DNA of 22,611 bases from a virus. The notes below the pieces were generated by a model that saw only the letters and a program-made list of their open reading frames with translations, was not told the DNA's origin and did not search any database. Below are positions 3,175-22,611 of this stretch, in pieces. How positions within the stretch are numbered: position 1 is the first letter of the stretch; each line of letters starts with the position of its first letter. The stretch covers positions 1 to 22,611 of IMG/VR virus record IMGVR_UViG_3300020371_000064; one strand, given 5' to 3'. The position numbers and the translations under genes were made by a program.

Positions 3175-3564
3175 TTACTCTGGTGATACACCATCATTAT
3201 CATCTTGATCATAATGAAGTCCATCATTTCCGTTCTGTCCTATGATATCCATACGCTTATTTGATTCATCTTCATCCCATTCTTCTTCAGAATCTTCTTC
3301 TGATTCTTCAGTATCATCGACAACTTCATCTGATTCTTCAGTATTATCTATTTCTTCTTCAGATGGATCTTCATCATTAAATACTTGACCGGCTAAGTTA
3401 ATCTTTTCTTGTTCCAAAGCATCATCAACTTTAGCCATCATCATATCTTCAAAATCTTTACTAGCAGCAACATAGTCTTTAGCAGTCACTGCATTTATAA
3501 AATTTTCTGCCGGTGAAACCTCAGGAGTTTCACTTTCAGCAGCTGCTGTATTTTCTTCACTCAT
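3175..3564 (-). CDS. 67: Prohead core protein, gp67-like (acidic)
   Basis: This is an internal core protein of the prohead; in T4, gp67 helps set head shape and is cleaved to an internal peptide. The 129-residue product carries FINAVTAKDYVAASKDFEDM (residues 22-41) followed by AKVDDALEQEKINLAGQVF (44-62). This closely parallels the T4 gp67 helix (short 'AI/AV' start, D-x-V-A-A, 'L-x-x-EKI-x-LA'). A highly acidic tail (about 64-108, mostly Glu, Asp and Ser) follows, as in T4. It is longer than T4 gp67 (80 residues) because of an N-terminal acidic extension of about 20 residues and a longer C-terminus. AAAGGAG gives a strong ribosome binding site before ATG 3564. Position upstream of the protease agrees. 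Confidence 0.87.
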   Translation of the reverse strand: MSEENTAAAESETPEVSPAENFINAVTAKDYVAASKDFEDMMMAKVDDALEQEKINLAGQVFNDEDPSEEEIDNTEESDEVVDDTEESEEDSEEEWDEDESNKRMDIIGQNGNDGLHYDQDDNDGVSPE

Positions 3565-3592: not shown

Positions 3593-6500
3593 TTAACCGT
3601 ACATCGCTGTTGATGGCGGTGTAAAATCTTTATCGTATAATGCTTGGCCTTTTACTATTCTAAAATTTGATATGTAACCATATAGTCCATAATCAGTAGT
3701 AGAGTAAGTCGCTCTAGATCCTATTCTCATATCTTCTCCAGTATAATTATTAGTATCAGAATATTCAGTAGATTGAGCCCAGCCATTTATAAACATTCTA
3801 GTTACTGCAGATTTTCTAGTAACTGCAATATGGTACCATTTGTATCTTGTTATCTCGTAATCAGATTGTATTCGAGTTCCTTGTGCAGCTCGAAGAGTAA
3901 CTGTACCTGAGCCAAATCCTATGAACATCCTCATATTATTAGCATTATCTACACTAGAATTTCCTCGAAGATCAAAAGGGTGTGTTCCTGCAGGCCAGTT
4001 AGAAGCCTGTGTGGTATAATACCAAAATTCTATTGTAAAATCACCGGTACCGAAAGCAAAGTCTGAATGTCCTGCTACAGTTAGATGATTTTCTCCATTG
4101 GCGCCGTAGATTGATTTCATTCCACCAATAGGAGCAAAGTTGCTAACAGAAGGACTTCCAACAGTTGATACCGTATGACCAGTAGCAGAACCATCAGTTA
4201 TTGTTGCAGCGTGTGCAGTTAGCAGTTTCGTATTTGATGCCGTTAATGTAACTCCATTCTGAAATGAAGTAGATGTTGTTAATGTTTCTTTCCTAGGAAG
4301 GAAAGGATACAAAGCCACTCCTCTTTTTAATCTTACCTGAGACATATAACCATTCCAAACACCTGTCTCTTTATAACCCGGTGAAGTAATGTATGTATTT
4401 CCTCCAAGGCCTCCATAACCGGTTCCAGCTATTTTTTCAGTACGAGCATAATCTGCTCCTTTTGTACCATCAACAAATAAAGCTAGCTTACCAGAATCAA
4501 AATTCCTCACTAATGCAAAATGATGCCAGTTTCCATCAAGTATATTGACACTAGGGCCTACAGCTGTAAAATTTGATCCAGAAGAGTTATGATTACTGCC
4601 TATGAATAATGTTAACTTATTACTATTAGATATATCACAGTAGAGTGCTATAGAACTAGCACCATTAAAAGTATGTTGTTGCCAGGCAAATATCTGAGGA
4701 TCGATACCATCTTGAGTTTCTGCAGTACCATTCCATTGAACCCAACCTTCAAACGTAGCACTCTCTAAAGCCATTATGTTCCTTACTTGCCTTACTCCAG
4801 TGTTTGATGTCATTTCTAAGAAATCGAAGTTTGTTTTAGTAAATTGTAATGATGATACGGAATATTTCTGTGAACCAGTACTAGAGTTTACAGAATTATC
4901 ACTGTAACTTCCATATCCACCACCTCGCGAAATCATATCCATTCCACCGGTATAACTTCCGACTCCCCAGTTAGACCAGTTGGCTAGGAAAACCGTGTGG
5001 CTAGCTGTTATACTATTATTAACACTAGTCACACTATCATCATTAGGTTTTTTTAATGAATGATAAGTCGATCCTGTTTTAGTAAAATTTTGATATGGTG
5101 GATAAAAATGATCACTATAAACGGCTGTACCTTTAACTACTCTCACAGGCCCTACATTGTTTGTTGCAGTCGTGTTTCCTATCTTAACAGTATCAGATGT
5201 ATTGTTAATATTAACACTAGTCATATTGGACGCTGAGTGATAATGACCGTTAGAATAGAATTTTGCAGTTCCACTAGCTCTGGTTACAGCAATGTGCCTC
5301 CAACCTCGCTCACCATAATTAACTCTTGCATTAGATTCTACCAAAGGAACTGTCTCACTTGAAGTAGTACCATAAGAGAATTTAATTAGCCTATCAGTAT
5401 CTTCGAATATACAAAATCCAACGTTATTTGAGCCTCGAGTATCAAATAAATTATATCGTGATCCTCCAACAGTTTGTCGATAATACCAAAGTTCTACTGT
5501 AAAATCTCCCGTACCAAAGGCAAAATCTGAATGACCCGGAACAGAAACTGAAGTTTCTCTACTTAGCGATCCTCCATGTTTATCGGAACTCCATCTTTCT
5601 GGCATCCTGTAAGGTGAAAATGGCTGAACAATCATTCTTGTAACTTTAGAATTATCTAAAGTAAAACCTTTGCCCGCCTCAGCTCTCATCTGGCCCTTTA
5701 CATAAGGAGTATTACATGTCAGTAATACAGTACCTGATATTGCTGTAAGTGGTGCTGTTGGAGGTGCAAAGTTAGCTGTATATACAGCAGTTCCTTTTAC
5801 TATTCTAAAATCTGCTATGTAACCTTTCCATCTACCATCATTAGTAAAACTGTTCCCTGAATGACCTCTTCCTATCATAAGGGTAGAATCTGCATAACTA
5901 TTAGTATCTGAAGCTGAAGCAACTTCTGTTCCATTAGCATACATCTTGGTAGTTCCACTAGCTCTAACAAAGGCATAATGAACCCATTCATAGCGTGGAT
6001 GTTTCCAAGTACTACTCGTATTAAATATATTACCGGTACCAAGACGAACATACCATGTTCCATCTGAGAACATATCTGGACATAAATTAGTTGCACTACC
6101 AGAACTGCCTCTCAAATCAAATGGCATCATTGAACCACCAGCACTCTCATCATTCCAACACCAAAATTCAATTGTATAATCTCCTGTACCAAACTGTACA
6201 CCCTGGTTTGGAATAGCTATATCAACACCTGAAGTATATTCAGTAGGATCTGATGTATTACTTGAAGAAGGATCCCAGCCAAATAACCAACTATACAAAA
6301 CGGGTGAATAAGGTGAAAAACTACTAATGTATGTTTTTTCATTATCACTAACATCCGATATAGTATGAGGAGAATCTGACTCATCAATCATTGCTGTGTG
6401 ATTCTCTACATTGTTACCTTGAGCGGCAAAGAAGAAAGAAGTAGATTCGGAGTTTGCCACTGTCGTATCAAAGGCTAAAGTAAATGTTGAAGAAGCAGTA

Positions 6501-7021
6501 GCAGTATTGATTCCGTCAGATGCTGTAAAACTTAATGTACCAGCAGCAGGTGCAGCTTCTCCGACCGAATCCTGTGATTTCGGTATGATAGTATATACAG
6601 ACGAATCATTAGAAACATAAGCTATATTATTGAATGCAGAGTTTGCTGAATAAGACCAGGTTATTGGAAATCCTTCTGAGTCTGTTGCAGCTAAAGTGAT
6701 AGTTGTCGCAGTTCCATTATTGTATGCTGTAGCATCAGTTGCTAGTTCATAACTTGCACTCGGACTTGAAGTAAAATAAGGTGTAGTATTAATTATTGCA
6801 ATATTAAACCAGCCTTGTCCAGTATGAACATAAAGTCTGTCCGAATCTTTTGCAAATCCTAATGATCCTGCATTATTTGAATCATAACTAGCAGGAAGCA
6901 ATCCAGAACTATCATATGCTGTCACTCCTAATACTGCTAGTGAACCATCAGATGCAATGTTATCTGTTTTTACAGCCTGCCCTAAACTCTTTGCTAAATC
7001 TCTTGCTCTTGTTTCTGCCAT
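3593..7021 (-). CDS. Giant LamG-repeat surface/fibre protein (1142 aa)
   Basis: This is a probable virion surface protein that binds glycans or host envelope. An N-terminal head domain (about residues 1-80) ends in DRLYVHTGQGWFNIAIINTTP, spanning slightly more than the head. Next is a cadherin/Ig-like β domain (about 82-190) with the motifs DSEGFPITW and PKSQDSVGEA. Four concanavalin A/LamG-type modules follow, seen from their second strands: GTGDYTIEFW (near 277), GTGDFTVELW (near 499), SATFEGWVQW (near 750) and GTGDFTIEFW (near 989). Each also has a WxH(I/F)A(V/L)xR strand and a closing RxVKGxAxYxxxFxPP or YPFLPRKETLT segment. It is a paralogue of the products at 7327-10839 and 11065-15060. 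Its first 21 bases are almost identical to those of the small gene just upstream. No signal peptide is present, as expected for a virion protein. Tail or head location is unknown. Confidence 0.9.
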   Translation of the reverse strand: MAETRARDLAKSLGQAVKTDNIASDGSLAVLGVTAYDSSGLLPASYDSNNAGSLGFAKDSDRLYVHTGQGWFNIAIINTTPYFTSSPSASYELATDATAYNNGTATTITLAATDSEGFPITWSYSANSAFNNIAYVSNDSSVYTIIPKSQDSVGEAAPAAGTLSFTASDGINTATASSTFTLAFDTTVANSESTSFFFAAQGNNVENHTAMIDESDSPHTISDVSDNEKTYISSFSPYSPVLYSWLFGWDPSSSNTSDPTEYTSGVDIAIPNQGVQFGTGDYTIEFWCWNDESAGGSMMPFDLRGSSGSATNLCPDMFSDGTWYVRLGTGNIFNTSSTWKHPRYEWVHYAFVRASGTTKMYANGTEVASASDTNSYADSTLMIGRGHSGNSFTNDGRWKGYIADFRIVKGTAVYTANFAPPTAPLTAISGTVLLTCNTPYVKGQMRAEAGKGFTLDNSKVTRMIVQPFSPYRMPERWSSDKHGGSLSRETSVSVPGHSDFAFGTGDFTVELWYYRQTVGGSRYNLFDTRGSNNVGFCIFEDTDRLIKFSYGTTSSETVPLVESNARVNYGERGWRHIAVTRASGTAKFYSNGHYHSASNMTSVNINNTSDTVKIGNTTATNNVGPVRVVKGTAVYSDHFYPPYQNFTKTGSTYHSLKKPNDDSVTSVNNSITASHTVFLANWSNWGVGSYTGGMDMISRGGGYGSYSDNSVNSSTGSQKYSVSSLQFTKTNFDFLEMTSNTGVRQVRNIMALESATFEGWVQWNGTAETQDGIDPQIFAWQQHTFNGASSIALYCDISNSNKLTLFIGSNHNSSGSNFTAVGPSVNILDGNWHHFALVRNFDSGKLALFVDGTKGADYARTEKIAGTGYGGLGGNTYITSPGYKETGVWNGYMSQVRLKRGVALYPFLPRKETLTTSTSFQNGVTLTASNTKLLTAHAATITDGSATGHTVSTVGSPSVSNFAPIGGMKSIYGANGENHLTVAGHSDFAFGTGDFTIEFWYYTTQASNWPAGTHPFDLRGNSSVDNANNMRMFIGFGSGTVTLRAAQGTRIQSDYEITRYKWYHIAVTRKSAVTRMFINGWAQSTEYSDTNNYTGEDMRIGSRATYSTTDYGLYGYISNFRIVKGQALYDKDFTPPSTAMYG

Positions 7022-7026
7022 ATTAA

Positions 7027-7317
7027 TTAATCATCTTTATTATAGTTGAAAGCGAATATTGGAACTTTATACCAACCACCATAGTCGGTCTCATTGTTTC
7101 CTACCCAGATATATAGTGAATCCCAACCAAAATTTCCATCTTTATCTTTGTATACAAAACCAAGATCGCCGACAGAGTTACCACTAGTAGGAAGATCCGT
7201 AATGGCCGTGTATACTGTCACTGCACTAACATCGAGCGCACCTGCAGAAGTTATAGTATCAGCTACAACCGCCTTTGTTGCTCTCCTTGCTATCTTTCTT
7301 GCTCTTGTCTCTGCCAT
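7027..7317 (-). CDS. Stand-alone fibre-head-domain protein (96 aa)
   Basis: This small protein resembles only the N-terminal head of the neighbouring giant LamG proteins. It starts MAETRARKIAR, matching the first seven residues of the 1142-residue protein (20 of 21 bases identical). It then has the same TITSAGALDVSAVTVY / VGDLGFVYKD order and ends in LYIWVGNNETDYGGWYKV, where the long proteins have LYxHTGQGWFNI. There is no Ig-like or LamG part. It lies in a 5- to 9-base-gap cluster between two giant genes. It could be a docking or adaptor subunit, a cap for unfilled sites, or the remnant of a longer fibre gene. The clean frame and normal stop favour a functional gene. Confidence 0.82.
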   Translation of the reverse strand: MAETRARKIARRATKAVVADTITSAGALDVSAVTVYTAITDLPTSGNSVGDLGFVYKDKDGNFGWDSLYIWVGNNETDYGGWYKVPIFAFNYNKDD

Positions 7318-7326
7318 TTTATCTAT

Positions 7327-10300
7327 TTATCCGTACATCGCTTCTGCTGGTGGAGTGAAGTCCACGTTATATAAGAAGCTACCTTTTGTAACTCTTACAT
7401 TTGATATGTAACCTTTAAATCTCTGACTAGCACTAGTTCCACCTATTGATAATACACTCGTTGAGTCTTGAGGGTGAACTGTAGTAGTATTCTGATGAAC
7501 CATATCGCCATTAACAAATGCAGCTGAATAAGAGCCAGTCTTTATTAAAGCGATATGTGTCCATGTCTGAAGAGGAACTTGTCCATTATTCGCTGATTGA
7601 TCAGTATAAGAAGAACCATTATAGAACTGATATCTTAGATATCCTGTAGTACCTTGAAATCCTAAATACCATGCAACTGAACTCGTCCACTGTCCTACTA
7701 CAAGAGCATGTGACTGATAACTTTCTATCCACACCCAAGCTTCTGCTGTCATAGCACCGCTTCCCATGCTCCAGTCTGCACTATCAGGAACTGTTAAGTA
7801 ATCTCCTGTTCCATCAAAATATACTGATTTCATTCCACCGTTTGGAGCCCAGTTTGATACAGCTGCATCACCAACGGCTGTTATGGTGTGGCTAGAAGCA
7901 GAACCATCTGTAAGAGTTGCTGCATGACATGTTATTAACTTAGTATCTCCTCCACTGTTTCCTACTGTTCTTGCACTGTTGAATGCAGTAGTAGGAGTTA
8001 GAGTTTCCTTTCTAATATGTTGAGGATATATATTTACTCCTTTTTTCAATCTCATCTGAGATATATTTCCATTCCAATTACCGGTATATCTAAAACCGCC
8101 TGAAGTTGTATATGTTCCACCACCTACATTAGTATAGTTACCAGGAGCTAATCTTCCAGTGTAAATAGATTGACTATTAACTCTTATACCATCAACATAA
8201 GCACACAACCTACCGTTATGTTTGTGTCTAGACAATGCAATGTGATGCCAGTTACCGTCTAAAAGATTAGCACCGGATCCACCTACGCTTACCGCACTAC
8301 CTGAAGATGAAGCCCCTGCATTTATCTTATAATATAACCTTCCGCTATCAGATACATCAGCAAATAACCCAGAGTAATTGGTGTGATCAACATTATAAGA
8401 TTGTCTGAAACACATGATTTGTGGATCTAAACCGTCTTGAGTTTCTGCGGTACCTGACCACTGAACCCAACTTTCGAAAGTAAACTCTTCATTAGGTGCA
8501 ATATTTGGATACATAAGATTATCAGTATTATTATTTCTTGTTTCAAGACTTTCATAATCAGTTTTATCAAATAACATTGAAGGTACTGAATATTTTTGTG
8601 ATCCAGTACTACTAACAGGACCATCATAAACTTTTGGACTAGCTGTGTACTGTCCCGCATGGGCGAAAGCAGTAAATCCTGCCCTGTCACCTATATTTGG
8701 AGTCCAGTTAACTAAGAAGACTGTTTCGCTCGCCGATATATTATTATCTACAGATGTATTACTATCATTGCCAGGATCCTTAAGAGATTTATATGTTGAT
8801 CCAGTTTTAGTAAATGGTGCTATAGGAGGATAGAAATTTCCAGTATATACCGCGGTACCTTTCACGATTCTCATAGGACCTACGAGAATCATTCGACTGT
8901 AGCCACCATTAGATCCTATAACAAGGGTTTCGTTACTATTCCAGTCAACGCTTGTACTACTAACAGCAACTTGTTCTCCGTTATGATAAAGTTTGTGAGT
9001 CGATCCTTCACGTGTCAATGCTATGTGTTGCCACCCACCAAGATCAGCCATATCATGAGTAGATGAAATAAGAACACTAGAACTACTATTAGTTCCGTAC
9101 TTAACTCTGAGTATATGTCCACTACTAGTATGATCTATGTAAAAGAAATATCCATTTCCACTATTTGGTCTATTATCAATAATTTCAACATCAGCACCAT
9201 GGTTAGCGTCAGGGGTTTTATCAAAAAGCCAAAATTCGATAGTAAAATCAGTACTAGTACCAAATTGAAAGTCTGAAGATCCATTTACCTGAACTCTACC
9301 TCCATTTTGTAAAGATCCTCCAACAGTTGAAGCGCTCCACTGTTTTTGAATTTTATAGGGAGAAAATGCTACGTGGTATGCTCGATTTATAGGCCCAGTG
9401 GTAGCACTCATAAAATTTCCTTTACCAGGTGCACCTTCTGCTCCCATTCCTCTCAAATACGGTTTATTACATATTAAGAATTCAGTATTGGTGATCGTTT
9501 GTAAAGGTGCAGTCGGTGGAGCGAAATTAGCTGTATAAACTGCAGTTCCTTTCACTACTCTAAAATCTCTTACATATCCTACAAACCTCGCATCATTTGT
9601 AGCACCTGTATTTCCTGGGCAAATTCTTCCTAGTGTAAAATAATTATCACCGCCTGATCCAGCTGAAACATAGTCGTTATTGTCTGTAAAAGAAAGAATT
9701 TCACAACCATTCATATATACTTTACTAGTAGTTCCATTTCTAACCCATGCTACATGATTCCATTCGTAATCTTTAAAAACTTGATCAACTGCAGTATGAG
9801 ATCCACTACTAGTGTTTGAATTACTACTTCCATATCTAGCAACTATCCTACCATTATTATCATGTACATTTATAGCTGGAGCTAAATTACTTTCGGCACT
9901 TCCTCTAAAATCAAAAAGATATCTGCTATTTGCGGTAGTAGTTACACTATAATACCATCCTTCTATGGTAAAGTCGTTAGAATTCCCTGATGGAGCTCCA
10001 AACGCAAAATGCGTGCCATTCTTATATTTTATAAAATCAGTTTGTTCAGGTATAAAAGTACTTTCCCCTGCACCACCTAACATTGTTGAATATCCTGCAG
10101 GAGCAAAAGGAGAAGTGCCAGTTACATGGCTATATACAAGTTGAGCATTGCTTGGACTTGAAACTACTGAAATTGTATGAGGAGAATCAGATTCATCAGA
10201 TGTAATCTGATTCGTTTGATTATTGCCAGTTGCACCTAGAAACATGGTTGTATTTTCTGAACCCGATATACTAGTGTCAAAGGTTAAACTAAAAGTAGAT

Positions 10301-10839
10301 GAGGCTGAAGCAGTATTGATTCCATCAGTAACACTAAAAGTCAATGTACCATCTGCAGGTGAAGCTTCTCCAACTGAATCCTGTGACTTAGGTTCGACAG
10401 TAAATATAAATCCATTTGCCGAATCCTGATCGACACGTGCTATATTATTAAAAGCTGTGTTAGCTGTTGCAGAGAATGTCACTGGAAAACCTTCGGAATC
10501 TCGAGCCGCAAGAGTTATGACAGTTGCCGTACCGTTCTTATAAGCTGTAGCGTCAGTTGCTAAAGTATAACTTGCACTTGGACTCGCAGTGAATATCGGA
10601 GTCGTGTTGATTATTGCAATATTAAACCAGCCCTGACCTGTATGAATGTACAGCTTATCAGAATCTTCGGCGAAACCTAGTGTTCCAGCATTGTTCGAAT
10701 CATAACTACTTGGAAGTAATCCTGCAGAATCATAGGCAGTAAGACCTACGACGGCAAGTGAACCTGTTGAGGTAATCGTATTATTTTTAACTGCTTGACC
10801 TAGGCTTGTTGCTAGGTCTCTATTTCGACTTTGTGGCAT
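7327..10839 (-). CDS. Giant LamG-repeat surface/fibre protein (1170 aa)
   Basis: This is the second of three paralogues. The head domain (about residues 1-80; starts MPQSRNRDLATSLGQAVK) is followed by the Ig/cadherin-like domain (about 82-195). Four LamG/ConA-type modules are marked by NDFTIEGWYY (near 283), TDFTIEFWLF (near 530), EFTFESWVQW (near 783) and AMTAEAWVWI (near 1028), with the closing FTPPAEAMYG at the C-terminus. From residue 8 through the Ig domain it is very similar to the 1142-residue protein, but its first seven residues differ. AAGGGA precedes ATG 10839 at good spacing, ten bases after the stop of the 69-residue gene. The role is probably binding of carbohydrate or host surface. 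The specificity of each LamG cannot be read. Confidence 0.9.
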   Translation of the reverse strand: MPQSRNRDLATSLGQAVKNNTITSTGSLAVVGLTAYDSAGLLPSSYDSNNAGTLGFAEDSDKLYIHTGQGWFNIAIINTTPIFTASPSASYTLATDATAYKNGTATVITLAARDSEGFPVTFSATANTAFNNIARVDQDSANGFIFTVEPKSQDSVGEASPADGTLTFSVTDGINTASASSTFSLTFDTSISGSENTTMFLGATGNNQTNQITSDESDSPHTISVVSSPSNAQLVYSHVTGTSPFAPAGYSTMLGGAGESTFIPEQTDFIKYKNGTHFAFGAPSGNSNDFTIEGWYYSVTTTANSRYLFDFRGSAESNLAPAINVHDNNGRIVARYGSSNSNTSSGSHTAVDQVFKDYEWNHVAWVRNGTTSKVYMNGCEILSFTDNNDYVSAGSGGDNYFTLGRICPGNTGATNDARFVGYVRDFRVVKGTAVYTANFAPPTAPLQTITNTEFLICNKPYLRGMGAEGAPGKGNFMSATTGPINRAYHVAFSPYKIQKQWSASTVGGSLQNGGRVQVNGSSDFQFGTSTDFTIEFWLFDKTPDANHGADVEIIDNRPNSGNGYFFYIDHTSSGHILRVKYGTNSSSSVLISSTHDMADLGGWQHIALTREGSTHKLYHNGEQVAVSSTSVDWNSNETLVIGSNGGYSRMILVGPMRIVKGTAVYTGNFYPPIAPFTKTGSTYKSLKDPGNDSNTSVDNNISASETVFLVNWTPNIGDRAGFTAFAHAGQYTASPKVYDGPVSSTGSQKYSVPSMLFDKTDYESLETRNNNTDNLMYPNIAPNEEFTFESWVQWSGTAETQDGLDPQIMCFRQSYNVDHTNYSGLFADVSDSGRLYYKINAGASSSGSAVSVGGSGANLLDGNWHHIALSRHKHNGRLCAYVDGIRVNSQSIYTGRLAPGNYTNVGGGTYTTSGGFRYTGNWNGNISQMRLKKGVNIYPQHIRKETLTPTTAFNSARTVGNSGGDTKLITCHAATLTDGSASSHTITAVGDAAVSNWAPNGGMKSVYFDGTGDYLTVPDSADWSMGSGAMTAEAWVWIESYQSHALVVGQWTSSVAWYLGFQGTTGYLRYQFYNGSSYTDQSANNGQVPLQTWTHIALIKTGSYSAAFVNGDMVHQNTTTVHPQDSTSVLSIGGTSASQRFKGYISNVRVTKGSFLYNVDFTPPAEAMYG

Positions 10840-10849
10840 TTACTTTCCC

Positions 10850-11059
10850 TTAAGATGATAGTTCGATCTTATACCAACCGCCCGTATCATTTTCATTGTT
10901 TCCTATCCATATAAAACCTCTGTCACCGCTATCTACGAAAACTCTCTGACCATCAGCATTTCCTGTTACCGGTAAGTCACCATTCTTAGCATATACCGGA
11001 ACCGAACCTACTACCTTTGAAGTTATTGCAATACTTTCTTTTATATCTGAGTACTTCAT
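10850..11059 (-). CDS. Stand-alone fibre-head-domain protein (69 aa)
   Basis: This very small protein matches the N-terminal head of the adjacent 1331-residue protein: MKYSDIKES against MKLSEIKKS. It ends FIWIGNNENDTGGWYKIELSS (residues 49-69), nearly the same terminal motif as the 96-residue protein. The middle (VPVYAKNGDLPVTGNADGQRV) is a short form of the TAYDS...LGFAxDSD region of the long proteins. It lies five bases after the stop of the 1331-residue gene and ten bases before the 1170-residue gene. The ribosome binding site is weak, so translation may depend on coupling. It is probably a docking or cap subunit related to the fibres; function is unproven. Confidence 0.8.
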   Translation of the reverse strand: MKYSDIKESIAITSKVVGSVPVYAKNGDLPVTGNADGQRVFVDSGDRGFIWIGNNENDTGGWYKIELSS

Positions 11060-11064
11060 ATTAT

Positions 11065-14000
11065 TTATCCGGTTATCTCAGTAGCTGGTGGTGTAAAGTT
11101 CTTAGTATAGAGAACTTGACTAGTCATTCTAACATTAGACATATATCCTTTAAAGTAATCTCCACCTCGCCTTCCTAAGTATACTCGATCAAAACTTGAA
11201 AAATTCTCTGTGTATGTACCTGATGATTCAGCCATGAATGTACCATTGAGGTATATCCTAATCTTATTATCAGATTCTCGTGTCACGGCTACATGATACC
11301 ACTTTGAATGTACCACTGTAGATGATCCTGATGCAACAACATCACTACTTTGATTTACAAATTTAATCTGTCCACTGTCAAACGTAATAGAACGATATGC
11401 ACTTGTAGTATTCCTATCAGCAACAGGAACAAATCCTACTAGAGGTTGAGCTCCACTGGCGGTAGAATCAGAACTCATCCAAAGCTCTACAGTAAATACT
11501 CCTGTACCAAATCCTGTTGCAGCCGCATGTATCATCATGGCATTTGATGATTCATCAAATAGAGCACTTACCATTCCTCCCCTAGGACCAAAGGTGCTTG
11601 CCGAAACACCAGATTCAGCACTAAAAGCTGTTCCACTATTTCCACTATTTGTTGTTAGAGTTGAGGTGTGAGCTCCTAATATCTTAACATTAGAAGCAGT
11701 AGTCGTAACTCCATCTTGAAATGATGTTGTAGTAGTTAATGTTTCTTTCTTAGGTAAGAAAGGATAGCGACCCTGCCCTCTTGTAATCCTAAATTCAGAA
11801 ATGTATGCATTAATGAATCCTGCTGCATTAGCAAATGAACCTAACCTAAATCTAGTACCTGACTCGCCAAATGATTCAGTATGAGCAACGGATAAGACTG
11901 TACCTGGATTTCCATCAACGAAAGTTTGTATTCTTTGATCTCTCTTAACAAGAGCAACATGTATAAAAGACCCTGTATTTGAAACCGATTGACTATTGAA
12001 AAGTTCAGTATCAGCATTACCCGGAGTATCATCACTATGATAATAGTATAATCTATTACTATTAGTAGTGTTTATAACAAGTTCATCATACTTTCCATTA
12101 CCACCTTCACTCCCGTAATAATTAAATGCATTATAGAAAATAGGATTTATCGAGCCTGTTTTCGCAGGAGTTGCATTATAGTAAGTATAGAATTCTAAAG
12201 TATAATCTTCATTACTTCTCATTAACCAAGATAGTTTATTATTCATGTTTATATAGTCACCATTTCCGTCAAACAATATTCCTGATAGGCCAGAAACTCT
12301 AGGTTGTCCACTATGACTTTGCGTATCTCCAATTAATGTCATATGCTGCCTTCCACCTTCATCAATGATCTTTCCATCAGTCATGCTCAAGAGTAATTTA
12401 GTATTACTAACTTCAGTGAGAGCTGATGTAGGAGGAGTAAAATCTTGAGAGTATACCGCTATCGATGAATATCTCATATTTGATATATATCCTGTAAGTC
12501 CTCCAGAACTAGCATCATAAGATCCTATTCTAGGCCTTGGACTACCACTATTAGGTGATATGTTTATTCCGGAATAATTTGAAGTTTGAGTATCAAGACG
12601 GCCATCTACAAATGATGATACAACACCATTTTTTCTAACAATTGCAACATGATGCCACGCATTATCACATATATTTATTGTATTACTTCTATAATGATTA
12701 GTATTACTACCAGATCCATGGCGAATATACTGTATAGAACCAGGTACTGCACCTTGTGGATTACTAGCAGGAGCTATTGAAAGTTGAAATTGATTAGCAC
12801 CAGCAGTATTTCCACTTGGTCCGTCAAACATCCATATTCTTTGATTTTTACTTCCGTCGTTAGCATTACCACTTGCCTTAAACCAAAATTCAATAGTAAA
12901 ATCTCCAGTTCCAGGTGCAAAAGTAGAAGATGCAGCTACATCAACATAATCACCATCTGCAAATGCAATTGATTTCATTCCTACAGCCGGAATCGTAGAA
13001 GACTCAATTGCTGCACCATTATTAGTCAAAGAGTGACCATTATCAGAACCATCAGTAAAACCTGAAGCATGAGCCATTATGAGTTCAACATCTCCCGCAT
13101 CTACTGTAATTCCATTTTCATAAGAAGTCGTTGTTGTAATAGTTTCTGCTACTGGTAAAAAAGGATATCTAGAATCTCCTTTAATCCATCTAAAATCAGA
13201 AATATATCCTTTAAAATCATACGATGTACTGCTATTATGTTTTCCAATACGTACTGTGGTTCCTTGAACATAATCAAACGAATCAGAGAAAGTAGTTGCA
13301 TGTTGCCTACCGTTCACAAATAATATAGTATTAGTAGAATTTCTAGTTAAAGCAACATGATACCATTGTTGTTTCTTGCATGTTCCAACAGTTCCATTTA
13401 TATAATTACCATTTATATGTGCATAAAAACGCGAGTTTGGACCGTCCCACCAAATATTTGGAACTTTTTGAGGATTAGCAGATCTTGGATCAAGCAACAC
13501 ATCCTGAGTATTAGTAGTAGGATACACCCACATTTCTATGGTATAGTTTCCAGTACCCATATCAAAATCAGCACTAGTAGGAACTGTTAAACCATATCCA
13601 GGTCCCGCCATGTATGCAGACCCACCATGTGTTGAAGAAGAGTATGCTTCTTGAACTTTATAAGGACTAAATGCATCTGTTACTACTGTATTATTAGGAG
13701 TTTGTACAGCATTTCCAGTTGAACCCTTACCATAAATATATGGAAGGTTACATGCTTGGTATTTCGTATGACTAGCAGTTATTGAAGTATTAACATTTGT
13801 AGTTGAAGGGTATGAACCCCCTGTAGTAGTTAAAGGTCCATCAGGAGGTGTAAAATCTCCAGTATAGACAGGAGTTCCTACTACTATTCTAAGATCATGT
13901 ATCCATCCTGTAAATTCAAGGTTAGGATAACTTTGATAGCTACTGGCTCCAATTATTATTCGATTATTCGTATAGTTAGTAGTATCAGATACAGATCCAG

Positions 14001-15060
14001 ACTCATGACCATTGATGTATATTTTACTAGTACCTGAATTTCTTACCCAAGCTACATGATTCCATCCAGTATGAGCACTAGTCCATGGCGCATAAGTAGC
14101 ATATATGATTGAGGATCCACTAACAGCTAACCTAATTTGATTATTATATTGACCAATAGTCCAACCTCCAGCATTCGAATAAAGATTATCAGAAACTATA
14201 GATCTAAATGTGTTATCACCGAAATCGTATTCATTTTGAAACCAAAATTCAACTGTTAAATCACCAGTACCTAGTGCAGGTCCATTTGTGTCAGTTCGAA
14301 CTGCATTACTATTAGCTGCATCAAAAAACCATGAATATCTTGCAGGAGAATAAGGACTAAACGTACCTTGATCTGTATTACCCACAGCTGTTATTGTGTG
14401 TGTTGTTCCAGTAGTAGACTTATCAGAAAAAGAACTATTATCACCGCCTGTACCTATACCCTTTGATAAGAATGTAGTACCTTCAGATCCTGCTATTGTT
14501 AGATCAAAAACTAAACTGAAAGTTCCAGTTGTTGAAGCTGTATTAATACCATCAGAAGCAGTAATTGTAAGTACACCATCAGCTGGTGCAACTTCTCCAA
14601 CTGAATCCTGTGACTTAGGTTCTATTACAAAAAACCGGCCTTTATCTGAATCGTGATTTGGATCACGATCTATATGTGCTATGTTATTAAATGCAGTATC
14701 TCCAGTAGCTGTATATGTAACGTCAAATCCTTCAGGATCAGTAGCTAGTACTTCAATATTAGTTGCCGTTCCATTCTTATATGCCGTAGCATCTTTTGCT
14801 AGATCATAACTCGCGTTCAATCCTGTAGTAAATGTTGGATTAGTGTTGATTGTAGATACTTGAAACCAACCTTGACCAGTATGAAGATATAATCTATCTT
14901 GGTTTGTAGTAAACGCATATGTTCCTTCCACACTATCTCCATACAATCCTGTTGGAAGGTAAGTATTACTTCCTGTACTTACAGCAGAATCATATATGAG
15001 TGTTTGGCCTGTTACACCTGCACCATCTGCGACTGATTTTTTAATTTCTGATAACTTCAT
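11065..15060 (-). CDS. Giant LamG-repeat surface/fibre protein (1331 aa)
   Basis: This is the largest and most divergent of the three LamG paralogues. The head domain (about residues 1-80, MKLSEIKKS start, DRLYLHTGQGWFQVSTINTNP end) precedes the Ig/cadherin-like domain with PKSQDSVGEVAPADG (about 82-205). Five LamG/ConA-like modules follow, marked by GDLTVEFWFQ (near 267), GNYTIEMWVYP (near 505), GDFTIEFWFK (near 720), EDYTLEFYTY (near 950) and GVFTVELWMS (near 1190). Linkers carry the D-G-S...H-(S/T)-(I/L) motif. Modules close with either FTPPxxxL or YPFLPxxETxTT, roughly alternating. The start is one base after the stop of the upstream fibre gene, with GAGAGA inside that gene's last codons as ribosome binding site. 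Host-surface or glycan binding is inferred from the fold. Confidence 0.9.
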   Translation of the reverse strand: MKLSEIKKSVADGAGVTGQTLIYDSAVSTGSNTYLPTGLYGDSVEGTYAFTTNQDRLYLHTGQGWFQVSTINTNPTFTTGLNASYDLAKDATAYKNGTATNIEVLATDPEGFDVTYTATGDTAFNNIAHIDRDPNHDSDKGRFFVIEPKSQDSVGEVAPADGVLTITASDGINTASTTGTFSLVFDLTIAGSEGTTFLSKGIGTGGDNSSFSDKSTTGTTHTITAVGNTDQGTFSPYSPARYSWFFDAANSNAVRTDTNGPALGTGDLTVEFWFQNEYDFGDNTFRSIVSDNLYSNAGGWTIGQYNNQIRLAVSGSSIIYATYAPWTSAHTGWNHVAWVRNSGTSKIYINGHESGSVSDTTNYTNNRIIIGASSYQSYPNLEFTGWIHDLRIVVGTPVYTGDFTPPDGPLTTTGGSYPSTTNVNTSITASHTKYQACNLPYIYGKGSTGNAVQTPNNTVVTDAFSPYKVQEAYSSSTHGGSAYMAGPGYGLTVPTSADFDMGTGNYTIEMWVYPTTNTQDVLLDPRSANPQKVPNIWWDGPNSRFYAHINGNYINGTVGTCKKQQWYHVALTRNSTNTILFVNGRQHATTFSDSFDYVQGTTVRIGKHNSSTSYDFKGYISDFRWIKGDSRYPFLPVAETITTTTSYENGITVDAGDVELIMAHASGFTDGSDNGHSLTNNGAAIESSTIPAVGMKSIAFADGDYVDVAASSTFAPGTGDFTIEFWFKASGNANDGSKNQRIWMFDGPSGNTAGANQFQLSIAPASNPQGAVPGSIQYIRHGSGSNTNHYRSNTINICDNAWHHVAIVRKNGVVSSFVDGRLDTQTSNYSGINISPNSGSPRPRIGSYDASSGGLTGYISNMRYSSIAVYSQDFTPPTSALTEVSNTKLLLSMTDGKIIDEGGRQHMTLIGDTQSHSGQPRVSGLSGILFDGNGDYINMNNKLSWLMRSNEDYTLEFYTYYNATPAKTGSINPIFYNAFNYYGSEGGNGKYDELVINTTNSNRLYYYHSDDTPGNADTELFNSQSVSNTGSFIHVALVKRDQRIQTFVDGNPGTVLSVAHTESFGESGTRFRLGSFANAAGFINAYISEFRITRGQGRYPFLPKKETLTTTTSFQDGVTTTASNVKILGAHTSTLTTNSGNSGTAFSAESGVSASTFGPRGGMVSALFDESSNAMMIHAAATGFGTGVFTVELWMSSDSTASGAQPLVGFVPVADRNTTSAYRSITFDSGQIKFVNQSSDVVASGSSTVVHSKWYHVAVTRESDNKIRIYLNGTFMAESSGTYTENFSSFDRVYLGRRGGDYFKGYMSNVRMTSQVLYTKNFTPPATEITG

Positions 15061-15061
15061 A

Positions 15062-18000
15062 TTATCTCTCTATCATTACCCAACCTTGATTAGCATCTAC
15101 ATATACAAATCCTAATGCCGACCTGTTAATATCAATTACAAAGTTAGAATCTGCTCCCATAATTTTAGAACTATTTCTAAGAACAGTAATATTGTTCGTA
15201 GCTGCAGTTCCATAGGCATCGATAATTCTTACTTCATCTCCTAGTGTTGGACTATTTGGCAACGTAACATTTATAGCTCCACTCGTACTATTTACGAATA
15301 CTCCTTGACCTGCTACGGCTGTATAATCGGCAGTCTTAACCGCTTGCCAATCTGTGCCTCCGGCGACTCTTGCCTGTACATAAGCCGAATCGACAATCGG
15401 AGATACTGTAGCAAAGTTAACAGTATCTGCACCTTTATAATCACTGATCTGTATGACATCATCTGAATCTACTCCAGATGTTAGTACTACTGATGTTCCA
15501 TTTGTTGCAGTATAATCATCACTATCTACGAGTAAGATACCATTTAAGAATACCTCTATACTCGAAGGATTATAAGAAAGCGTTCTTCCTTTAACATCTG
15601 ATCCTTGAAATGTAGTTTGAGCTGAGTCTGCATTAAACCTAAAATGTTTAACTCCTTGACCGATCTTATTAAATGTTGATATGTTGATAATATCACCGCT
15701 ATCAGCTCCAGTATTTAATACAACTTGAGCTCCGTTAGTGGCAGTGTAGTCATTTGAATCTGTTAATAATATACCATTTAAGAATACCTGAATTGCTCCA
15801 GGTGTATAAGATAAAGTATTTCCATCTATATCAGTTCCACCAAATGATGTCTGAGCAGAGTCAGCTTCATAATCAAAGTGATTTATACCTGTAAGACTTC
15901 CGGTTGCATTTCCAATTAAAGTATTAACTCCAGCAGAATCTATAGTTCCTCCACCAGGTATAGTAATTGTTTTAGTGGCACCAGTTCCGCTAGCTGTAAC
16001 TCCAGCTCCTACAAAGTTTAATGTAGTGCCTGATGTGGAAAGACTAGAGCCTTCTTCTTGTACAGTAACTCCACTTCCGCCGCCAGATATGGTAATTGTC
16101 TTAGTTGCACCTGATCCTGATGCTACTACACCGTTTCCTACAAAATTAATTGTTGTTGCAGCAGTCGATAAAGAAGATCCTTCATCTTGTACTGTTATTG
16201 ATGATCCTCCTCCACCACCAGCAGAAGCTTCCAAACTAATCTTACCTGTAGAATGATCATATGTTAATACGTAGTTATCTTGTCCTGAACCAACTGTTTG
16301 ATCAGCATCAAATTTAAAATTACCTAGTAATACATCACCTGTTCCATGTGGTTCAATATCAATGTTACCGTTTGAAGTTGATACGATCTTAGCACCATTG
16401 ACATCTAATGCTCCACCAAGTTGAGGAGTCGTGTCTTCGACTACATTGTTGATTGAGACTGCCTGTGCACGTGCATCAGTATAGTATAAATTAGTAGAAC
16501 CTTCTGTTAAGTCATCAGTTGTAAATCCTGTAAAATTTCTTGTTCCTATTCTTACAGCATTACCCATATTAGCATGAGCTGAACATTGATAATGTAACAT
16601 AGAAGGTGTAGCATCACCTACTACTATTTGTGTATAAGCACCAGCACTCCCAGCAGTACCATTAGTAGTTACATTAGTTGTAAAGGCTGTAGTTTTAGCT
16701 GCTTCATAATAGAAACGTAATGGGTGATTAGCATTACTATTATCTGATTGATCAAATTTGTAAGTTCTTCCAGGAGTTAAAGTAAGTAGAGGACCTTCCA
16801 CGCCATCCATTACATACCCTAAACTAGATCCTGTACTATAGTAACGATGAGCAGCAGTTTTAGTTGCAACAGTGACGTTAATTGTAACTACAGATTGACT
16901 TGAACTTGCACTAATATGACTTAAATTTTTAACTATAGGAACATCTAAACTTCCATCTATATCAGCACTTCCTGATATATCTAAACTAGTGGCTTCTATC
17001 TCACCGCTTGTTTTAAATATAACATTATCACCGCCATCAACTTCAAATATAATTTGATTATCAGTTCCAAATTTTATTCTGTTATCAGCATCTCTTCCTA
17101 TTTCTAATGCTGTGTTAACAACAGATGTAATTCCTGTTTGAGCTGCATCTAAACTAACTGCACCACTTGATACTGCAAAGAACGTATCACTAAAGCTAGC
17201 AACTCCTTTATTTGATGTGGTAGCATCTTCAGCTGCGATTGTTAATGTATCTGTTGCTGAAACTGTAGCATCAATACCTTCTCCAGCAGTAACTGTTAAA
17301 GTATCACCTAAAGCTACAGCCTGTGTTGTACTTCCATCGCTTAATGTAAATGATGAATTAGATAATTTAGAATTAGCAATTGAACCTGCCAACTGAGCAT
17401 TTGTAATAGTTCCAGAAAGAGAACTTGTTGGATAATTGGTAGCATCACTTAAATCAAATGCTGGTGTTGCATCGGTAGCACCTAATGCTAATGATACTCC
17501 TCCATAACTTACTGTTGAATTAGCTAACTTAGCATTAGCTATAGAACCTGCTAGTTGAGTATTTGAAACTCCACCTGATTTAATTGTAACTGCTCCAGAT
17601 GAAACACTAAAATCATTTGATGAAAACGAAGCGATACCTTTTGCGGAAGTAGAAGCATCTGTTGCATTTAATGTAACATCTCCACTAGTACCTCCACCAG
17701 ATAATCCTGTACCTGCTACAACTGAAGTAATATCTCCACCACCTCCGCCACTAGCTGCAAACGTGATTGTATCACCAGAAGCATTTGTAGTAATAGTCAT
17801 ATTACTACCAGCGGCAAATGTTAATGTGTCTGTTGCTCCATCAGCTACAACATTGTCTTGTCCGGACACGGCAATTGTTTTAAATGCTTCAGTAACTGTT
17901 CCACCACCATCAGCAGCTGGAGCCCATTCTGACCCTGACCATTTTAATATTTGATTTGTAGATGGAGATGTACTGCTTACGTTTGATAAGTTTTCTATAG

Positions 18001-19810
18001 GAATTGCAATATTTCCAGTTCCATCAAAACTTACACCGGCTATTGTTCTAGCATTAGCCAACGCTGTTGCTGTAGCAGCATTTCCGGAAGTATTTTGATT
18101 TCCAGCTGTATTGACTCCAGGAAGATTTATGTTTCCAGTTCCATCAAAAGATACTCCACCGATGTTTCTTGCAGTTTCGAGAGCTGTCGCAGTGGCTGCA
18201 TTTCCAGTAGTACTTTGATTAAGTGTTTTAATACTAACTGCTCCGGATGATACTGTAAAATCAGAAGATGCAAAACTCGCTATACCTTTAGCCGAAGTTG
18301 TAGCATCAGTTGCATTAATAGTATTTCCAGATTTAGTTAAACCTGTGCCGGCAGTTATTTGACCTGCACCTGAGAATTGACTAAATGTTAGAGATGTAGA
18401 ACCTAATGTTATTGATCCTGTATTTGTTAAGACAAATCCTAAATTAGCGTTTGCAGTTCCTTCTTCTACAAAAGTAAATGCTCCACCGGTAACTTCAGAA
18501 TTAGCATCGAAGTCAGTAGCTCTTGTTGGTGCACCTGAACTGTTAACTGTATAGATACCATTTTCAGATCCTGTGCTTTGATCTTTAATAAGTATTCTAT
18601 CACCAGTTGATAATGAAACACCATCTACAGTTTGACCATTAGCATAGGCAGAAGATAATGTACCATTTCCTGTAGTTGCTACTCTTACTGATTTCTTAAC
18701 ATCTAGACCACTAGCAACTCCATCAACATATTGTTTTGTTGCAGCATGTAAATTATTTGTAGGATCTCCATCTAATGTTAGTTTATCAGATAATGTTCCA
18801 CCAGCTAAATTTAGTTTTAAAGCTAAAGCATCAAATACTGCATTCTGTGAAGGAGCAACATCTGTTGTTCCATTATTAATCGCATCTGCGACTGTAGCTG
18901 ATTTTGCTCGAGCAGTTGTAAAATATAAATTAGAAGAATGTTCTGATATGTTTTGAGTAGTTAAACTAATGTTACCTGTACCATCGAAAGATACTCCAGC
19001 TATTGTTCTAGCATTTTCTAAAGCTGTGGCTGTGGCAGCATTACCTGTTGTACTTTGATTTAGTGTTTTTATTGATACAGCACCAGATGAAACTGTAAAG
19101 TGGTTTGTATTGAAACTAGCAACACCTTTATTAGATGTTGTTGCATCTTCTGCTGAAATAGTAAGAGTATCAGTTGCAGAGACTACAGCATCTATGCCTT
19201 CACCAGATGTAAATGTTAAAGTATCTCCTAAAGCAATTGCTTGTGATGTGTTTCCGTCAGTAATGGTAAATGAAGCGTTTGCCAACTTAGCATTAGCAAT
19301 TGAGCCGGCTAACTGAGCATTTGTGATAGTTCCTGATAATGAACTTGTAGGATAATTTGTTGCATCAGATAAATCAAAAGCTGGAGTTGCATCAGTGGCT
19401 CCTAATGCTAATGATACACCTCCATAACTTACAGTAGAATTTGCTAATTTAGCGTTAGCAATAGAACCTGCCAATTGTGCATTACTAACCCCACCATTTT
19501 TAATTGTAACAGCCCCTGATGTAACATTAAAATCAGCACCATCAAATGAAGCTATACCTTTATTTGATGAAGTAGCATCTTCAGCTGATATTGTAGTTCC
19601 AGATATATCAATACCTTCTCCAGCGGAAAAGGAGGCAGCATCCAATGCATCTAGTTCAGCTTTTGTTGCTAATCTTGTTCCACCTGCAGTTGTAGCATCA
19701 TGAACACGTAAAGTTTTATTAGTGGTATCAAATGTTATTTCACCTGCGGCACCAGTAAAGGAATTATTCTGTGCATTGGTACCTCTTCTAAATTGTAATG
19801 TTGTAGGCAT
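15062..19810 (-). CDS. Large modular phage fibre with cupredoxin-like domain (1582 aa)
   Basis: This is a probable tail-fibre or virion-fibre subunit. Domains in order: an LQFRRGT head with GEITFDTTNKTLRVHD (residues 5-45), typical of phage fibre and tropism-determinant N-termini; a Ser/Thr/Ala/Gly-rich repeat region with a 128-residue duplication (106-233 and 746-873) and GNAATATAL units; a fibre domain with GDRILIKDQS and ENGIYTV (about 366-478); a cupredoxin-like domain (about 973-1088); a YYTDARAQAV linker; two VQ(D/E)EGSSLS repeats (about 1202-1287); two 78-residue β repeats with VFLNGILL (1311-1466); and a C-terminal domain with DWQAVKTADYTA and a final GWVMIER. GAGG six bases before ATG 19810 and an upstream late promoter support the start. 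The absence of a lyase or protease motif argues for binding, not digestion. Confidence 0.92.
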   Translation of the reverse strand: MPTTLQFRRGTNAQNNSFTGAAGEITFDTTNKTLRVHDATTAGGTRLATKAELDALDAASFSAGEGIDISGTTISAEDATSSNKGIASFDGADFNVTSGAVTIKNGGVSNAQLAGSIANAKLANSTVSYGGVSLALGATDATPAFDLSDATNYPTSSLSGTITNAQLAGSIANAKLANASFTITDGNTSQAIALGDTLTFTSGEGIDAVVSATDTLTISAEDATTSNKGVASFNTNHFTVSSGAVSIKTLNQSTTGNAATATALENARTIAGVSFDGTGNISLTTQNISEHSSNLYFTTARAKSATVADAINNGTTDVAPSQNAVFDALALKLNLAGGTLSDKLTLDGDPTNNLHAATKQYVDGVASGLDVKKSVRVATTGNGTLSSAYANGQTVDGVSLSTGDRILIKDQSTGSENGIYTVNSSGAPTRATDFDANSEVTGGAFTFVEEGTANANLGFVLTNTGSITLGSTSLTFSQFSGAGQITAGTGLTKSGNTINATDATTSAKGIASFASSDFTVSSGAVSIKTLNQSTTGNAATATALETARNIGGVSFDGTGNINLPGVNTAGNQNTSGNAATATALANARTIAGVSFDGTGNIAIPIENLSNVSSTSPSTNQILKWSGSEWAPAADGGGTVTEAFKTIAVSGQDNVVADGATDTLTFAAGSNMTITTNASGDTITFAASGGGGGDITSVVAGTGLSGGGTSGDVTLNATDASTSAKGIASFSSNDFSVSSGAVTIKSGGVSNTQLAGSIANAKLANSTVSYGGVSLALGATDATPAFDLSDATNYPTSSLSGTITNAQLAGSIANSKLSNSSFTLSDGSTTQAVALGDTLTVTAGEGIDATVSATDTLTIAAEDATTSNKGVASFSDTFFAVSSGAVSLDAAQTGITSVVNTALEIGRDADNRIKFGTDNQIIFEVDGGDNVIFKTSGEIEATSLDISGSADIDGSLDVPIVKNLSHISASSSQSVVTINVTVATKTAAHRYYSTGSSLGYVMDGVEGPLLTLTPGRTYKFDQSDNSNANHPLRFYYEAAKTTAFTTNVTTNGTAGSAGAYTQIVVGDATPSMLHYQCSAHANMGNAVRIGTRNFTGFTTDDLTEGSTNLYYTDARAQAVSINNVVEDTTPQLGGALDVNGAKIVSTSNGNIDIEPHGTGDVLLGNFKFDADQTVGSGQDNYVLTYDHSTGKISLEASAGGGGGSSITVQDEGSSLSTAATTINFVGNGVVASGSGATKTITISGGGSGVTVQEEGSSLSTSGTTLNFVGAGVTASGTGATKTITIPGGGTIDSAGVNTLIGNATGSLTGINHFDYEADSAQTSFGGTDIDGNTLSYTPGAIQVFLNGILLTDSNDYTATNGAQVVLNTGADSGDIINISTFNKIGQGVKHFRFNADSAQTTFQGSDVKGRTLSYNPSSIEVFLNGILLVDSDDYTATNGTSVVLTSGVDSDDVIQISDYKGADTVNFATVSPIVDSAYVQARVAGGTDWQAVKTADYTAVAGQGVFVNSTSGAINVTLPNSPTLGDEVRIIDAYGTAATNNITVLRNSSKIMGADSNFVIDINRSALGFVYVDANQGWVMIER
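15413..15880 (-). repeat. Tandem 234-base (78-residue) β-module duplication in the fibre gene
   Basis: Two adjacent in-frame units, 15647-15880 and 15413-15646, encode the same module. HF-x-(Y/F)-x-ADSAQT opens each, and SYxPxxIxVFLNGILL(T/V)DS and DYTATNGxxVVL lie in the middle. The module is a familiar marine-phage fibre β domain. The DNA has diverged clearly more than the protein. Confidence 0.85.
16547..16894 (-). other. Cupredoxin-like domain with type-1 copper ligand pattern
   Basis: Residues about 973-1088 of the 1582-residue fibre read as a cupredoxin β-sandwich. The segments are YVMDGVEGPLLTLTPGRTYKF, then NANHPLRF, an AGAYTQIVV strand, and finally HYQCSAHANMGNAVRI. The four canonical type-1 copper ligands are all present in order: H1029, C1076, H1079 and M1082. 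Spacing C-x2-H-x2-M is tighter than in plastocyanin (C-x2-H-x4-M). Related HP...YC-x2-H-x2-MG domains recur in marine phage fibres. Metal binding is inferred, not shown. Confidence 0.7.
17192..17575 (-). repeat. Long internal fibre duplication, downstream copy
   Basis: This 384-base segment encodes residues 746-873 and repeats the segment at 19112-19495 with an offset of exactly 1920 bases (640 codons), without any indel. The two 128-residue products differ at 13 positions by my count, about 90% identity. In the 60-base stretch starting at 17461, seven bases differ from its partner at 19381 and none changes the protein. Confidence 0.9.
19112..19495 (-). repeat. Long internal fibre duplication, upstream copy
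   Basis: This segment encodes residues 106-233 and is the partner of 17192-17575. Motifs such as NAQLAGSIANAKLAN (which itself occurs twice per copy) and GGVSLALGATDATPAFDL are shared. Weaker similarity continues upstream into the GIASF...SGAVTIK units, so the boundaries given are those of the strong core. Confidence 0.9.
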
Positions 19811-19865: not shown

Positions 19866-21089
<1,224 letters not shown>

Positions 21090-21092: not shown

Positions 21093-22611
21093 TTAATTTA
21101 CTAATGCCTGAGCAACGTTTTCTAAAACCTGCAATTCTTTTTCTTTAACTTTATTATCTAAAATCTTAGATTCTTCATCTATAGGATCAATCTGTTCTTC
21201 TATTATTTCTGGAATCTCTTCATAATAATCTTCTTGTTGATTATCATCAGGTTCTTCTGTTTCTCCGCTATCAGCTTCTCCTTTTATCTGTTTTTGCATT
21301 TCTTGGACATCTTCATCTGACATTCTTAAAACATTTTTCATTACCCAATCTTTAGAAAAGTATGTACCAACTAGTTGTGCATTTTGTAAAGTTTCAAGAG
21401 TTTGGATTCTTTCTCTCAACATTTCAGTATCACGAAGTTCTGCAAAATGGTTATCTCTTACATAATCTACTATAATTTTATTTTTCCAAGATTTCCAATC
21501 ATCAGGTGTAGTAATACCTTTAAGAATGCATTGTTTTTCTAAAATTTCTAAAAATACTTTACTAAATCTTTTTCTTAAACGATCGATAAATTTTTGAAAT
21601 TTCAATTCATCTCTGCTTATTTCAGTTGCTCTTCCTAATATACCACTAACTTGTTCTTGATCTAAACGACTCATTGGAACATTAAGTGATTGATATAATT
21701 TCTTCTGAAAATAAATTATGTCATCTATTTGACCAAGGTTATCTCCACCAGGCAATGTAGTAATCTCTGTACCTCTACCACCTTCTCTTCTTGGTAACCA
21801 AAAATCTTCTAACATTGACATGTGTTTACGATCATCTTTAATTTCACCGGTCTTAGCATCATAAACTAATTTATTACGATACCTAGTCATAATATCTTTT
21901 AAATATTGTTCAGCTTTACCACGTGGCAAGTTACCTACATCAATATAAAATATTCTTCTTTCTGGAGCTCGAGCTAGTCTGTAAATAACTAATGAATCTT
22001 CCATCATTCTTAGTTGATTAATCGCTTTAAGAGCTTTATGTAAGTAAGATACTACTCTCTTTTTATCTTCACTTAGCAATCCGGAAGTTACATAGCATAT
22101 TGCATCAGTTGATATTTTAACACCACCTGAATAATTACTACCACTTTTTTCTTGGAATATGAAGTACTCATCTGTTTTTTCGACAAGATTAGCACCAGTT
22201 TCTTGGTCTTTTTTCTTTTTTACTTGTTTTACTTTTCTAATCTTTGCAGCATCAATAGGTCGTACTTCTTGTATACCAGCACTAAGATTAGAGTCGTCTA
22301 CTACTAAATGATAATATATTCTGCCATCAACATACCATCTTCTAAATATATCGTGACCTAACTCTTCAAAATTTAACATTTGAGTTACGTTATTAAATTC
22401 TTCGTTTAATTGATTCTTTATAGTTTGGCTTACGCCTTTTAAGTTATCTAGTACTAAATTAACTGAAGTTTTTATTTCACTTCCGCTAATTGCTTCATTG
22501 ATAATATCTTCCACAGCCATATCAACTTCAGGTTGAAATGCTACACCTCTGTACTTCATAACTAACTGAGTATTATCCTTAGAGTCATCTCCTTCAATAT
22601 TAAGAAACTGA
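21093..22611 (-). CDS. 20: Portal vertex protein, gp20-type (N-terminus cut by window edge)
   Basis: This gene encodes the dodecameric portal that starts prohead assembly and forms the DNA channel and neck attachment. The frame stays open to the right edge, adding 17 codons (QFLNIEGDDSKDNTQLV) before the internal Met at 22559. In this family FQPEVDMAVEDIINEA lies some 60 residues from the start, so the true start is outside the window. Strong signatures are RRWYVDGRIYYHLVVD, IQEVRPIDAAKIRKVK, FWLPRREGGRGTEITTLPGG and NLGQIDDIIYFQKKLYQSLNVPMSRL (overlapping segments of one conserved block). The C-terminus is acidic (about EETEEPDDNQQEDYYEEIPE) and then helical. T4 gp20 has about 524 residues; 505 are visible here. 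Identification is very secure. Confidence 0.97.
   Translation of the reverse strand, partial: QFLNIEGDDSKDNTQLVMKYRGVAFQPEVDMAVEDIINEAISGSEIKTSVNLVLDNLKGVSQTIKNQLNEEFNNVTQMLNFEELGHDIFRRWYVDGRIYYHLVVDDSNLSAGIQEVRPIDAAKIRKVKQVKKKKDQETGANLVEKTDEYFIFQEKSGSNYSGGVKISTDAICYVTSGLLSEDKKRVVSYLHKALKAINQLRMMEDSLVIYRLARAPERRIFYIDVGNLPRGKAEQYLKDIMTRYRNKLVYDAKTGEIKDDRKHMSMLEDFWLPRREGGRGTEITTLPGGDNLGQIDDIIYFQKKLYQSLNVPMSRLDQEQVSGILGRATEISRDELKFQKFIDRLRKRFSKVFLEILEKQCILKGITTPDDWKSWKNKIIVDYVRDNHFAELRDTEMLRERIQTLETLQNAQLVGTYFSKDWVMKNVLRMSDEDVQEMQKQIKGEADSGETEEPDDNQQEDYYEEIPEIIEEQIDPIDEESKILDNKVKEKELQVLENVAQALVN

Follow-up and report, generated by a model that had tools for sequence, protein, structure and literature searches.

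Two short genes in the window, the 22,611-nucleotide stretch of DNA analysed here, encode free-standing heads of the giant fibre-like proteins encoded beside them, and comparison with relatives indicates that such a small gene and its giant are an old, co-inherited gene pair. With a probability of about 0.5, we propose that the small proteins of 69 and 96 residues (S69 and S96) are minor virion proteins that share the docking mode of the giants, with a role as adaptor or base partner subunit.

The small proteins and the heads of the giants

The window covers 22.6 kb of a marine T4-like phage and has a G+C content of 37%. All relevant genes lie on the minus strand, and their order in the direction of transcription is gp20, a 407-aa collagen-repeat gene, a 1582-aa Mtd_N gene, G1331, S69, G1170, S96, G1142, gp67, a gp68-like gene, gp21, gp22 and gp23. 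The names gp20, gp21 and gp67 are based on PHROG matches; gp22, gp23 and the gp68-like gene we take to be such from gene order and general knowledge. The fibre island (3593-21089, about 18 kb) is inserted between gp20 and gp67, within the head-gene cluster. No such island between gp20 and gp67 was found in the isolates C48C1, Melnitz and HTVC008M, and it is likewise missing at this site in most of 80 relatives fetched via gp68. Further insertions were observed between gp67 and gp68 (L045, L062) and after gp23. Both small open reading frames described in the first-pass annotation are present on the minus strand (Table 1).

Table 1. Genes of the fibre island and its two borders in the window
Feature	Position	Strand	Evidence and remarks
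gp20 portal, upstream border of the island	21093..22559	-	phrog_213, E 3.5e-185
407-aa collagen-repeat protein, start of the island	19866..21089	-	Pfam Collagen, E 1.3e-31
Fibre-like protein of 1582 aa carrying an Mtd domain at its N-terminus; first large island gene	15062..19810	-	Pfam Mtd_N, E 2.5e-12
G1331, giant fibre-like protein	11065..15060	-	head residues 1-74 (14839-15060), then cadherin/Ig-like and LamG domains; Pfam Laminin_G_3, E 3e-64
S69, free-standing fibre head, 69 aa	10850..11059	-	K-type tag MKYSDIKES and beta domain
G1170, giant	7327..10839	-	head residues 1-80 (10600-10839); directly downstream of S69, gap 10 nt
S96, free-standing fibre head, 96 aa	7027..7317	-	R-type tag MAETRARKIARR and beta domain
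G1142, giant	3593..7021	-	head residues 1-80 (6782-7021); directly downstream of S96, gap 5 nt
gp67-like prohead protein, downstream border of the island	3175..3564	-	phrog_1064, E 3e-8

When local alignment scores were compared with those of 2000 shuffled sequences, no shuffle reached the score obtained for S69 with S96 (121), for S96 with the heads of G1142 (123) and G1170 (103), or for S69 with the head of G1331 (62). The match of S69 to the heads of G1142 and G1170 was weaker (3 and 20 of the 2000 shuffles as high, respectively), and that of S96 to the head of G1331 was not significant (68 of 2000). The shuffled alignments rule out chance similarity between the small proteins and the heads. 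The earlier reading of the two genes as free-standing fibre heads is thus upheld by a shuffle-tested match to the first ~85 residues of the giants, and by their conservation as proteins. Moreover, the beta-domain core LP..G..F.....LY...G.GW is present in both small proteins, with a domain-profile E of about 1e-12 to 1e-13; as they were among the starting sequences of the profile, the independent support is the shuffle test. An alignment of 26 heads and the tag list place an R-type or K-type tag at the N-terminus of both, and S69 resembles a joint of a K-type tag and a small-type hairpin. Reading of the sequences confirmed the common ending of the small proteins (WIGNNENDTGGWYK / WVGNNETDYGGWYK) and the similar starts of small proteins and giants (MKYSDIKES/MKLSEIKKS and MAETRAR/MAETRAR). 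Neither S69 nor S96 gave a clear Pfam or PHROG match.

AlphaFold2 modelling of S96 yielded a helix (residues 5-15) that leads through an extended linker to three strands, with a mean pLDDT of 65. In the model of residues 1-191 of G1142, a helix (5-18) is followed by a linker, by three strands and by a cadherin/Ig-like domain that is well defined (mean pLDDT 74, with the tag under 50); the best matches of this domain are cadherins, with Z near 9. The structure predictions, at low to moderate confidence, hence agree in the order of elements in the small protein and in the giant head. The domains behind the giant heads had been annotated as Ig and LamG; the LamG assignment stood, and the domain directly behind the head is modelled as cadherin/Ig-like (residues 76-185). 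As modelled, the head looks like an N-terminal helical tag joined to a small beta domain of tail-fibre families, and the beta domain scores to the tail-fibre families phrog_3904, phrog_15437 and phrog_21412. A Foldseek search of the PDB with the S96 model returned nothing significant, and a second look gave Z values of 3.3 or less. The head profile matched collagen XVIII weakly (E 0.058), and a wider profile did not reproduce the match to the collagen trimerisation domain in the PDB. Single head members matched PF20010 (5.7e-4) and Mtd_N, likewise a trimerising module (2.4e-5), such weak matches occurring in 6 of 42 members.

Gene order, ancestry and selection

Relatives, both close and distant, were obtained from IMG/VR scans with the small proteins and the giant heads. 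The domain profile detected 162 distinct head-bearing genes across all fetched loci; 146 were long, and 12 encoded a head only. With two added later (L188 and L190), the head-only genes amount to 14, all from uncultured marine phages and encoding proteins of 69-126 aa. Isolates searched with the small proteins or heads gave no convincing match, and none of the cultured phages in the searched collection contains a convincing relative of the small proteins.

A head-bearing giant follows at once, with a gap of -14 to +11 nt, in 12 of the 13 head-only genes whose next gene is visible, and four of the pairs overlap in an ATGA-type arrangement. The exceptions are L011/L020, where no gene is visible after the small gene, and L010, where it is followed by gp67 and not by a giant. 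At the stage of 11 small genes, a head gene came next in 10 of these as compared with 52 of 119 giants (Fisher p 0.0027, the rows not being independent). This adjacency is partly biased because many loci were collected through giants; of the five loci that came from scans directed at the small proteins, four had a giant next. The count supports the pairing, short of proof.

The first-pass annotation had described giants and small genes as alternating; the arrangement is better put as a giant preceded immediately by a small gene. The annotation had also proposed looking for the same arrangement in related phages, where it does recur. The small gene is recurrent in relatives that keep the giants, but it is not universal: a 219-kb relative has 18 beta-domain matches, none of them head-only, and most giants of the relatives have no adjoining small gene. 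In that relative (L137/L168, 219,676 bases), the eighteen matches to the beta-domain model lie in open frames of 153-982 aa, several of them in tandem genes. The order of a G1331-type giant, S69 and a G1170-type giant is repeated in L190, a Tara Red Sea contig. Binning has placed this phage contig in a Neomarinimicrobiota MAG of Red Sea origin, which is probably an error, or else a hint to the host. The pairs occupy three kinds of site: the interval from gp20 to gp67, the position behind gp23 (L088) and the neighbourhood of an nrdA-like gene (L188, nrdA being named by eye).

A tree of 50 heads joins eight of the small proteins (S96 of the window and those of L009, L010, L018, L019, L110, L108 and L131) in one branch with a support of 95/89, which lies outside all giants including their own partners; the tree rests on 77 columns only, and its deep forks are tentative. 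The branching inside this clade resembles that of the partner giants. A single clade for all 11 placed small proteins is compatible with the data (p-AU 0.34). A clade apart from the giants together with partner-like branching speaks for an old stand-alone lineage that was inherited with the giant. Repeated local truncation of the neighbouring giant is disfavoured by the separate clade of eight.

The dN/dS values, calculated by the Nei-Gojobori method, were 0.06-0.11 for S96 in three comparisons and 0.07-0.10 for S69 in two (Fisher p 5e-5 to 2e-11), which rules out that the small genes are decaying fragments. The giant heads are equally constrained (0.02-0.13), as compared with 0.18-0.26 for the Ig-like part of the giants and 0.35-0.59 for the LamG bodies; in G1331, the head has a value of 0.13 and the LamG body of 0.59. 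With values as low as those of the heads, the small proteins thus behave as a conserved mounting part, unlike the variable receptor-binding part.

The island recombines apart from the core genes, as indicated by opposite contrasts in two relatives. Between the window and L016 the core genes are near-identical (dS 0-0.07), yet dS amounts to 0.49 for S96 and to 0.57 for the giant, whereas in L010 the relation is reversed (S96 0.37, core 1.2-1.5). The S96 gene of L010 (847-1137) is 91% identical to that of the window, with core genes at 34-74% identity; from these values, it is a small gene or island that moved between divergent phages. A giant in L017 (9001-10992) is chimeric: its head is of the G1142 type (MAETRARDLA), and its body has 74% identity to G1331. 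Read from its two parts, this chimera shows arm exchange behind a constant head.

Each small protein had been thought to share its tag with one neighbouring giant. The match in sequence holds, the tags of S96 and G1142 being identical over seven residues, but not its specificity for the pair, as many fibre-like proteins of 86 to >1300 aa carry such tags. Both the R-type start (M-x-x-[ST]-R-x-R-x-[IL]-A) and its K-type counterpart are found across the whole size range of fibre-like proteins, in some of which the second domain differs. In two mid-size proteins, of L017 (7958-9001, 347 aa) and L018 (4496-5581, 361 aa), tags of these kinds are followed immediately by an Ig-like domain and the beta domain is missing, which makes the tag a separate module. 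The usual tags are swapped in L108, RKIARR, typical of small genes, being on the giant. Similarity between partners in seven clades exceeded permutation over the first 30 residues (p 0.01) and not over the first 10 (p 0.12); a strict tag pairing is therefore unsupported as a rule. All eight R-type pairs combine one K-I-A tag with one D-[IL]-A tag. This pattern could reflect complementary helices, and is kept as a lead only because it comprises about five independent lineages and D is the commonest residue in the giants.

Possible roles of the small proteins

According to the proposed reading as an adaptor or base partner, the small proteins would consist of the attachment unit of the giants alone, that is, a short N-terminal helical tag and a beta domain of about 50 residues. 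The beta domain probably trimerises in small proteins and giants alike, and the tag would dock the small proteins to the virion, at the baseplate or tail, as in the giants. A giant would be mounted on or beside the small protein, whose synthesis would be coupled to that of the giant by the tight, often overlapping gene order. An extension to a two-part fibre-mounting system is rather doubtful; here, paralogous heads and giants would co-assemble or compete at one docking site, paired tags (often K-I-A / D-[I/L]-A, swapped in L108) would decide the partners, and the fibre load per virion would be set genetically.

The same tight gene order would also suit a fixed ratio of the two products, as expected if the small heads filled the docking sites of the giants without bringing a receptor-binding arm, so that the ratio set the number of giants per virion. 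Such a competitor or cap would have the tag and beta domain in common with the giants, and the identical tags of S96 and G1142 fit it. However, identical tags are not the rule in other pairs, and the small proteins belong to an old clade of their own with distinct features (a longer hairpin in several, the KIARR tag) and are not copies of their partners' heads, which renders this role unlikely. The position of the small gene directly upstream, with overlapping or near-touching ends, could equally serve a non-structural or transient chaperone that assists trimerisation or docking of the giant and is made by coupled translation just before it. Genes for dedicated helpers are often found close to phage fibre genes. 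We consider a helper role quite unlikely, since, to our knowledge, no fibre helper duplicates the N-terminal head of its fibre and S69 and S96 have no Pfam match to known chaperone families.

The mosaic nature of the island, with the chimeric giant of L017 and the small gene of L010 that moved between divergent phages (dS 0.37 versus 1.2-1.5 in the core), would be expected if the small genes were heads stranded by fibre exchange and kept as docking sites for future arms, and truncated receptor-binding proteins (RBPs) of such a kind are described in Klebsiella phages (PMC6872550). Such a leftover or recombination reservoir is decidedly improbable, as the dN/dS of 0.06-0.11 and the one old clade argue for a continuous function. 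It is hardly credible that the small proteins are internal proteins targeted to the capsid, as could be suggested by the location of the island inside the prohead cluster and by the tag MKYSDIKE of S69, which is like MKKFNEIRE of the gp68-like protein and holds a possible I-x-E protease site. The N-termini of S69 (MKYSDIKES) and of the gp68-like protein (2933-3145, MKKFNEIRES) are indeed alike, and I-x-E is kept in three S69 copies. However, giants with the same K-type tag lack the E, the R-type tags do not fit, and pairs also occur after gp23 and beside the nrdA-like gene.

In the abundant marine T4-like phages, no part is as variable and as little understood as the receptor-binding proteins. 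If the small proteins are conserved partners of the giants, they would offer a fixed handle for locating the docking site and sorting the exchangeable arms, and would allow one to ask whether phages tune the number of fibres they carry. In addition, a head-only gene directly before a head-bearing giant is a sequence signature that can be searched for in metagenomes.

Comparison with known fibre-mounting systems

The statement in the first-pass annotation that no such pair system is described was too strong, since anchor-only RBPs and the adaptor of K1-5/SP6 are precedents (PMC6872550). Both anchor-only RBPs and adaptors that have short docking peptides are known from podoviruses (PMC6872550). 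According to the account in PMC6872550, which cites Leiman et al. 2007, the adaptor gp37 of K1-5/SP6 is a small trimeric protein that shares the N-terminal part of the tail fibre and has no receptor-binding arm, and the arms dock by short conserved N-terminal peptides. Like gp37 in that account, S69 and S96 correspond to the N-terminal part of a fibre without the arm, as judged from their sequence. Unlike them, gp37 is given there as a podovirus protein of about 300 aa with a T7-type anchor and T4gp10-like docking domains (PMC6872550); a sequence search of S69 and S96 against Pfam gave no match to the T7-type anchor or T4gp10-like families.

In the Klebsiella phages of KP34 group A, 2044-307w and KpV767, an RBP is reduced to an anchor or to a 69-aa docking-peptide stub beside a full RBP (PMC6872550). 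These reduced RBPs have been interpreted as losses confined to single phages or groups, whereas the S69/S96 kind is an old clade under purifying selection in divergent phages. The beta domain of the head is contained in phrog_3904, phrog_15437 and phrog_21412, whose members are named as fibres and not as stand-alone heads; S69 and S96 themselves gave no PHROG with a good score. With regard to location, the host recognition cluster of pelagimyophages is a hypervariable tail-fibre island in marine T4-like phages, and ConA-like, collagen and Mtd domains are noted in the structural operon (PMC7029224). That cluster lies between VrlC and gp14 (PMC7029224), in contrast to the position of the window's island between gp20 and gp67.

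Taken together, what differs from these precedents, as far as the sequences indicate, is a family of 69-126 aa in which neither a T7 anchor nor a T4gp10-like domain was found and which has apparently been kept up as a gene pair over the long term. By analogy, the podovirus adaptor and the anchor-only RBPs would provide the nearest working model for the small proteins.
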